A stretch of DNA of 64,000 bases from Nitrospirota bacterium (lineage in GTDB: Bacteria > Nitrospirota > Thermodesulfovibrionia > Thermodesulfovibrionales > UBA6898). The translations under genes were made by a program, and so were the position numbers. Positions within the stretch are counted from its first letter, which is position 1. Each line of letters begins with the position of its first letter. Location of the stretch: assembly GCA_021783515.1 (NCBI GenBank), contig JAJXTV010000014.1, forward strand, positions 1 to 64,000. The letters are read 5' to 3'. The notes beneath the pieces were generated by a model that was given only the letters and a program-made list of their open reading frames with translations, had not been told where the DNA came from and did not search any database. Shown here piece after piece: positions 53,516 through 54,883 of the stretch.

Positions 53516-53545
53516 GCGGAAAATATTGTCCGGACGCGCCTGCCC

Positions 53546-53582
53546 ACATGTAGTGGCGCTGCTCTCCACCGCCACTACATGT
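53546..53582. repeat. 13-bp perfect inverted repeat
   Basis: ACATGTAGTGGCG and its exact complement CGCCACTACATGT are separated by 11 bases. It lies between the divergent dcw promoter and the DUF1573-cytochrome selenoprotein gene. There is no T-run. It may be a hairpin barrier or a protein site; the arms are not repeated elsewhere in the window. Bases 53583-53720 show nothing else. Confidence 0.7.
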
Positions 53583-53732
53583 TGGCTCTCATCTCCTGTC
53601 TTGTCCCGCTCCAGATTTTGCCGGGAGTTTCCGCCGGGAACAGCCCGAAAGAAAGCGACCGCGCCGGCGGTGAGCAATCTGCAAGGGTCCCATGCGGGCT
53701 TTTCGGAGAAGGACCTGATGTAAAATAGACAA

Positions 53733-54404
53733 ATGAGACACTTGCTTCTGATAGCGCTGCTTCTCGTCCTCGCGCCCCTGACTGCCGGCGCAGCTCCTGC
53801 GATACGGTTCGACGATCTCTCCTACGCTTCCCCGGTCATCTCGCAGACGGACATGGCGGAACATACATTCGGGTTCGTGAACTCGGGCGACAGCGAACTC
53901 GTCATAGAAGACATCGCTCCATCCTGAGGCTGCACGGCCGTGATGGCTAGTTCAAGCCGTCTCAAACCGGGAGAAAGAGGCAGGATCAAAGCAACGGTCG
54001 ATATCAGGGGGAGGACCGGGGTTATCACCAAGACAGTCTCCGTCCGCTCGAACGATCCGGAGAGACCGGTGACGCTTCTGTCGCTACGGATGTCGATAAA
54101 AGACCAGACGCATATCGGTAGATACCACCCGACGGAGATATTCAGTGAACGATGCAGGGGATGTCACGTTGACCGGGGAAAGGGGAAGAGGGGATGGAAC
54201 CTCTTCAGGGCCGATTGCTTCATTTGCCATAATGCCGGCGCCAGCACATCGCTTACGCAGATGAGCAAGAAACCGAGGGGATCCCTCGAAAGGATAATAC
54301 GAGAGGGGATCGAAAATACCGTGATGCCCGGGTGGGATGAGAAGCACGGAGGGCCGCTCGACGAGACGGATATCGAGTCATTGCTCGATCTGCTCTCCCG
54401 GTAG
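53733..54404 (+). CDS. Candidate selenoprotein: exported DUF1573 domain fused to dihaem cytochrome c, Sec65 at in-frame TGA
   Basis: A 223-residue frame interrupted only by TGA at 53925-53927 (codon 65). Residues 1-20 are a signal peptide. Residues 25-125 match DUF1573: HTFGFVNSGDSELVIEDIAPS, then position 65, then GCTAV, then LKPGERGRIKATVDIRGRTG and KTVSVRSNDPERPVT. The family has SCGCT, so TGA replaces the first Cys of the C-G-C motif, giving S-U-G-C-T. Residues 141-145 (CRGCH) and 162-166 (CFICH) are haem sites with Met198 as possible ligand. A SECIS-like hairpin starts 14 bases after the TGA. No ribosome site; TAAAAT lies six bases before the ATG, so the mRNA may be leaderless. The alternative is a recent nonsense mutation. 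Confidence 0.72.
53942..53961 (+). promoter_or_regulatory. SECIS-like hairpin in the DUF1573-cytochrome gene
   Basis: GATGGCT and AGCCGTC form a 7-bp stem with one U-G pair; the six-base loop is AGTTCA. It starts 14 bases after the TGA, placing the loop 21 bases after it, within the range of bacterial SECIS elements, and the loop has the expected G-U. Confidence 0.65.
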
Positions 54405-54448: not shown

Positions 54449-54883
54449 TTATTGTATGTCGGGTTTAAAGACCGAGTACTCCAGGTTTCTGACTTCAAAT
54501 CGTCCTTTCGAGAGCTCCCTCACCTCGCATTTCAGAAAGTCATGAAGCTTGAAGGCATCCCCCTTCCTGAAATCCGTGCCGTCATCCGCCCTGAAAGACC
54601 GGGTGACAATATGCATGCTCTGGATTTCACCCTTCACGTAATAAACCGGCTTTCCTCCGATCTTCGTTCTGCCGACAATCTCCAGACCGGATTTACTCAC
54701 TTCCACGTCCACGTCCCCCCCGAACTGTTCCTTTACTTTCTTCCGGCTCATCTCCTTATATTCTCTTACAACGGCCTTCTTGATCTTTTCCTTGATGTCG
54801 CGCGGCACGTCGTTCGCTCCGGCTGCACCGCAAACGGTAGCGGCAAGAAGCACCAGACAAACGACAATGAGTTTCCTGTACAT
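54449..54883 (-). CDS. Exported protein of unknown function
   Basis: 144 residues with a signal peptide (LIVVCLVLLAATVCGAAGA). The mature part is a charged helix (IKEKIKKAVVREYKEMSRKKVKEQFGGD) followed by beta-strands (VEVSKSGLEIVGRTKIGGKPVYYVKGEI, then FEVRNLEYSVF), perhaps a PepSY/NTF2-like sandwich. I recognise no family. It is convergent with the selenoprotein gene, 44 bases away. Confidence 0.65.
   Translation of the reverse strand: MYRKLIVVCLVLLAATVCGAAGANDVPRDIKEKIKKAVVREYKEMSRKKVKEQFGGDVDVEVSKSGLEIVGRTKIGGKPVYYVKGEIQSMHIVTRSFRADDGTDFRKGDAFKLHDFLKCEVRELSKGRFEVRNLEYSVFKPDIQ

Follow-up and report, generated by a model that had tools for sequence, protein, structure and literature searches.

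The window, the whole stretch of 64,000 nucleotides of Nitrospirota DNA analysed here, carries a gene for an exported protein that combines a DUF1573 domain with a two-haem cytochrome c. Comparison with its relatives indicates, with a probability of about 97%, that this protein is a selenoprotein, with selenocysteine (Sec) predicted at codon 65. It represents a known selenoprotein family in a new architecture, and it comes with a first functional lead.

The frame translates as MRHLLLIALLLVLAPLTAGA... and ends with a TAG stop after 223 codons, the sole internal stop being a TGA (see the table below). The initial annotation had described a single frame of this length with one TGA at codon 65, intact on both sides, the TGA standing for the first Cys of the SCGCT motif of DUF1573, two CxxCH motifs in the same frame and a hairpin 14 bases downstream of the TGA. 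All of this was confirmed on re-reading positions 53733-54404, the two CxxCH motifs starting at residues 141 and 162 and the hairpin lying at 53942-53961. The Pfam model of DUF1573 (PF07610) gives the protein 73.6 bits, above the curated cut-off of 26.1, and the protein read with Sec also matches Cytochrome_CBB3 at residues 151 to 204 (E value of 7e-10). With two CxxCH motifs behind an export signal, the protein has the features of a two-haem c-type cytochrome, the attachment of the haems being predicted. By analogy with class I cytochromes c, Met198 is the likely axial ligand of the second haem.

Two further features lie next to this gene. An inverted repeat with 20-nucleotide arms, 90% complementary and 5 nucleotides apart, is found between mraZ and the cytochrome gene (53542-53586) and is possibly a terminator or an operator. 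On the reverse strand, convergent with the selenoprotein gene, positions 54449-54883 encode an apparently exported protein of 144 residues with no Pfam or NCBIfam match.

Table. Features of the DUF1573-dihaem cytochrome c gene, in window positions.
Feature	Position	Strand	Remarks
DUF1573-dihaem cytochrome c CDS	53733..54404	+	223 residues; exported (predicted); predicted Sec at codon 65
Predicted Sec-type signal peptide	53733..53795	+	about residues 1-21, AGA|APA; hydrophobic N terminus also in homologues
DUF1573 (Ig/ASH-like) domain	53808..54077	+	residues 26-115; Pfam PF07610, E value of 1.3e-20; model and Foldseek matches
Putative Sec codon TGA (codon 65)	53925..53927	+	first position of the UGC redox motif; CGC in the Cys form
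Cys67	53931..53933	+	partner of Sec65; invariant in the alignment of 55 fusions
SECIS-like hairpin	53942..53961	+	stem 53942-53948 / 53955-53961; loop AGUUCA 53949-53954
First haem c site, C141-x-x-C-H145	54153..54167	+	invariant in the alignment of 55 fusions
Second haem c site, C162-x-x-C-H166	54216..54230	+	invariant in the 55 fusions; 21 residues after the first
Met198 in the invariant MP(G) motif	54324..54326	+	invariant in the alignment of 55 fusions

The genome to which the window belongs is 98.7% complete and contains the machinery for Sec. Matches were obtained for selA (598 bits), selB (373 bits) and selD (346 bits), the last of which itself carries one TGA, and for a tRNA-Sec with the anticodon TCA (67.6 bits). 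Both DUF1573 matches of this genome carry a TGA, which in the second copy (L038) stands at the same codon. Homologues are present in 16 of the 27 genomes of the same family, and each of their 22 matches has exactly one internal stop, which is always TGA; in those read out, it sits in a U-G-C motif, with U-G-G in one. Close TGA fusions from 31 related genomes likewise have exactly one TGA each. The selA gene is found in 30 of these 31 genomes, the remaining one (G313) being a fragmented assembly that is 89% complete. All 28 Nitrospirota TGA fusion loci read out in the named genome collection have their TGA at this codon.

The hairpin (GATGGCT-AGTTCA-AGCCGTC) has seven base pairs and begins at the distance from the TGA that is usual in Sec genes. 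When folded as a single sequence, its stability is unremarkable (z of -0.9), and weight was therefore placed on covariation. When 31 distinct Sec genes are aligned without gaps, 94.5% of the cells of the 7-bp stem with its 6-nucleotide loop are paired, and changes on both sides occur at five of the seven pairs. None of 500 shuffles matches the paired percentage or the covariation score of this stem, and shifting the stem partner by one to three columns leaves pairing at 41.5% or below. RNAalifold recovers the same hairpin unaided. Rfam has no above-threshold match in the window or in the hairpin region. A stem of at least 5 bp is present at this place in 41 of 54 Sec sites but in none of 57 Cys sites. 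The loop starts with AGTT in 45 of the 54 Sec sites at the main register, and several of the remaining sites have an AGTT loop one codon later or GGTT-like loops. The Ser codon at +8 from the TGA is AGT in all 28 fusions. Codons +5 to +11, those across the hairpin, are the only ones at which third-position variation is reduced. The region thus looks, at the level of its sequence, as a SECIS within a coding sequence should.

Genes with Cys at this position show how the two forms are distributed. In the contigs of named genomes, 28 loci have TGA at this codon and 41 have TGC or TGT, the Cys fusions being mostly from Vampirovibrionia and Obscuribacterales. In a set of 396 Nitrospirota genomes, TGA is present in the close fusions from the class of the window (Thermodesulfovibrionia by name) and in none of those from families f22, f23, and f28, which belong to other Nitrospirota classes. 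A tree of 55 fusions requires three Sec/Cys changes. None of the ten Cys-fusion genomes of f22 and f28 has selA; four f23 genomes have it, yet encode Cys at this codon. The Cys-form proteins of other Nitrospirota and of Vampirovibrionia/Obscuribacterales have the same domain order as the Sec form, and the 21-residue spacing from CxxCH to CxxCH is common to the Sec and the Vampirovibrionia-type Cys fusions. The Cys-form genes differ in having TGC or TGT in place of TGA and no hairpin, and those of f22 and f28 also in forming an operon with a DsbA-like gene.

Several relatives depart from the common motif. Two DUF1573-dihaem proteins (L163 and L164, from G084 and G110) have lost CGC and retain only one Cys (TCVY); the redox pair is therefore dispensable in some fusions. 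A short DUF1573 Sec protein (L042, G018:C112) has U-G-G for U-G-C and thus a Sec without its partner Cys. In L181 (G357:C267:14748-19422), L182, and L183, DUF1573 stands behind a longer N-terminal part, and the TGA is found within U-R-x-C or U-K-x-A-T. The DUF1573 domain is duplicated in tandem in L181, and both copies carry a TGA and an AGTTC hairpin of their own.

The gene might instead yield no selenoprotein, being a pseudogene, an assembly error or a case of deliberate truncation after 64 residues, and a shuffled sequence does also give a hairpin as strong as that of the window. The identical TGA, however, recurs in dozens of independent assemblies, including the paralogue, with the cytochrome part intact, and it is accompanied by the covarying hairpin and the sel genes, which makes such readings extremely improbable. 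Reassignment of UGA to another amino acid was considered separately and rejected: UGA is the true stop of several homologues, and the in-frame UGA aligns with Cys. The initial annotation had read the TGA as Sec, with selA, selB, selC, and selD, Cys/TGA exchange and a SECIS hairpin as checks, and with random stops or frameshifts in relatives as grounds for rejecting it. All four genes were found (selC as tRNA-Sec), the exchange occurs at exactly this codon, the hairpin covaries and is by comparison specific to TGA genes, and every close TGA fusion has a single TGA, with no random stops or frameshifts in the relatives. Together these strongly support the Sec reading.

The surroundings of the Cys forms point to a partner. 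In all ten Cys-fusion genomes of f22 and f28, a DsbA-like gene stands immediately before the Cys-form gene. This neighbour matches Pfam DSBA with an E value of about 1e-18 and has a CPHC or CSHC motif, and the start and stop of the two genes overlap where read in detail; at L155, a TlpA-like gene lies additionally upstream in the operon. In f23, the L151 frame runs on past its cytochrome part into a DsbA-like domain as far as the contig end, with a DsbA profile match inside the frame, and L149 has a frame-broken remnant of such a domain behind the fusion. That Cys relatives adjoin or are fused to a DsbA-like protein suggests that electrons pass between protein thiols and haems. DsbB was found in none of the 69 Nitrospirota genomes searched. 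VKOR is present in 11 of these 69 and in 3 of the 45 with a close fusion, but it is rare in fusion-less genomes too, and the contrast within the family (3/13 versus 8/14, P = 0.12) is not significant. This distribution fits a replacement of DsbB and VKOR by the fusion and is no proof of it.

In the Sec-form neighbourhoods examined, no DsbA-like gene adjoins the fusion, a scan for thioredoxin motifs likewise gave no DsbA, and no gene is conserved across families; some Sec-form genes are followed by UbiA/UbiX-like genes. The window genome contains no close relative of the partner DsbA. It does encode a VKOR-domain protein (L191, G000:C25:39294-39632) with, as read from the sequence, a C-terminal thioredoxin-like CKYC part; this protein would be the alternative disulfide generator of the genome. 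Elsewhere in the phylum, DsbA-like frames with one in-frame TGA are found at G313:C290, G002:C1:1314136, G009:C156, G213:C69, and G379:C135 and C240, and these may be Sec DsbA proteins.

The AlphaFold model of the protein, built with 55 sequences, is confident (pLDDT of 92, pTM of 0.65), the placement of the domains relative to each other being uncertain. In it, strands 56-63 and 68-72 of DUF1573 are connected by the loop that carries Sec65 and Cys67. A Foldseek search retrieved generic Ig/PapD-like domains, and a sequence search of the PDB gave weak matches only. In the mechanism that we propose, UGA codon 65 would be decoded as Sec by SelB and tRNA-Sec with the downstream hairpin. A two-electron exchange would take place between the selenol/thiol pair U65/C67 and the CxxC of a thioredoxin-fold protein in the periplasm, and the electrons would then pass singly to the two haems and onward to the respiratory chain. 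As one-electron acceptors, the two haems would suit a dithiol or selenolthiol, which gives up two electrons. Met198, again by analogy, suggests a rather high potential of the second haem, favouring oxidation. On this view, the protein would be a soluble equivalent of DsbB/VKOR: acting as a thiol(selenol):cytochrome c oxidoreductase, it would return a DsbA-like protein to the oxidised state, with the adjacent or fused DsbA-like protein as the partner in the Cys-using relatives.

The chances of such a relay from thiol or selenol to haem are about even, the electron exchange, the transfer to haem and the oxidising direction all being steps that we infer; the relay would probably oxidise its thioredoxin-fold partner. 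Counting against it in the Sec lineage are the lack of an adjacent dsbA, the unconserved neighbourhoods and the VKOR-domain protein of the window genome. A need for the haems is countered by the short DUF1573-only Sec forms, which have no haem, so that the redox motif also works haem-free. The wider proposal is a new class of disulfide-generating system in the periplasm, which would stand in for DsbB/VKOR in many Nitrospirota. The soluble DUF1573-dihaem cytochrome would oxidise DsbA-like proteins via CGC or UGC and hand the electrons over to cytochromes, Thermodesulfovibrionia using the selenium version. This is put forward tentatively, as a possibility that is more doubtful than the relay itself.

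The electrons might also run the opposite way, the haems feeding respiratory electrons to the UGC or CGC pair, which would reduce a thioredoxin-fold protein (an isomerase or a TlpA/CcmG-like one) in a DsbD-like manner. The TlpA-like gene in the L155 operon would suit this direction, and an Ig fold with a redox Cys pair recalls the N-terminal domain of DsbD. It is nonetheless rather unlikely, since the partner that recurs is a DsbA-like protein, whose CPHC or CSHC motif is typical of oxidants, and since Met-ligated haems tend to have potentials too high for dithiol reduction. As a terminal reductase or peroxidase, the protein would use its selenol to attack a small substrate (peroxide or a sulfur or selenium species), and the two haems would restore the selenol from the Se-S or selenenic form. 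Many Sec proteins are peroxidases or reductases, and short DUF1573 Sec proteins without haem are frequent in the same order. DUF1573 has no known peroxidase-type residues, however, and the association of the Cys forms with DsbA suggests that the partner is a protein thiol, leaving this function quite unlikely.

An improbable reading dispenses with redox turnover altogether: the UGC or CGC motif would bind a soft metal such as copper, or guard cytochrome thiols during maturation. Close Cys/Sec pairs can bind Cu(I), and the assembly of cytochromes and of CuA involves partner thioredoxins. A switch to Sec is rare among pure metal ligands, though, and the U-x-x-C and U-x-x-A-T variants argue for chemistry at Sec over a fixed metal site; nor does any recurring neighbour of the Sec forms hint at metal handling.

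With DsbB and VKOR, the fusion would share the passage of electrons from a DsbA-like protein to the respiratory chain. Those proteins, however, are membrane quinone reductases, whereas the fusion is an exported Ig-domain haem protein, similar in its proposed task but not a member; neither a DsbB nor a VKOR domain was found in the window protein with Pfam. The N-terminal domain of DsbD has an Ig-like fold, one loop of which bears a redox-active pair of cysteines, and serves thioredoxin-fold partners. It has no demonstrated sequence relation to the fusion, and DsbD is fed by a membrane domain and is haem-free.

The OS_HP2 selenoprotein was reportedly described by Zhang and Gladyshev in 2007, from Olavius. 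NCBIfam model NF041425 (OS_HP2) gives the window protein 58.3 bits and ten Sec relatives 62.8 to 82.1 bits, all below its cut-off of 100. Tables of PMC9312934 and PMC13188914 include DUF1573 (OS_HP2) with UGC among the selenoproteins. As listed there, it shares with the window protein a Sec at the first UGC position of DUF1573 and one Sec per domain; these tables give a DUF1573-domain protein only, whereas the window protein, from Nitrospirota, adds the two-haem cytochrome c. Among c-type cytochromes, the multihaem ExtKL and octahaem tetrathionate reductase-type proteins are also listed as selenoproteins (PMC13188914); these families are distinct from the fusion, and the tables name no DUF1573 for them. 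No description of a DUF1573-cytochrome selenoprotein was found in the literature searched, OS_HP2 being compared through the table listings and NF041425. The initial annotation had regarded the combination as apparently new to the described selenoprotein families. This appears to hold for the cytochrome fusion, but Sec in the UGC motif of DUF1573 had already been catalogued (OS_HP2, NF041425).

Genes of this kind can be misread as broken, as normal reading stops at codon 65 and the NCBI family model stays below its cut-off. For the DUF1573 selenoproteins, so far without any function assigned to their domain, the link to DsbA-like proteins and haems as redox partners is a first concrete lead. 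If the relay is true, it would constitute a haem-coupled route to extracellular disulfides in bacteria without DsbB, and its Sec and Cys forms would be a natural pair in which to measure the effect of selenium on an electron path from thiol to haem.
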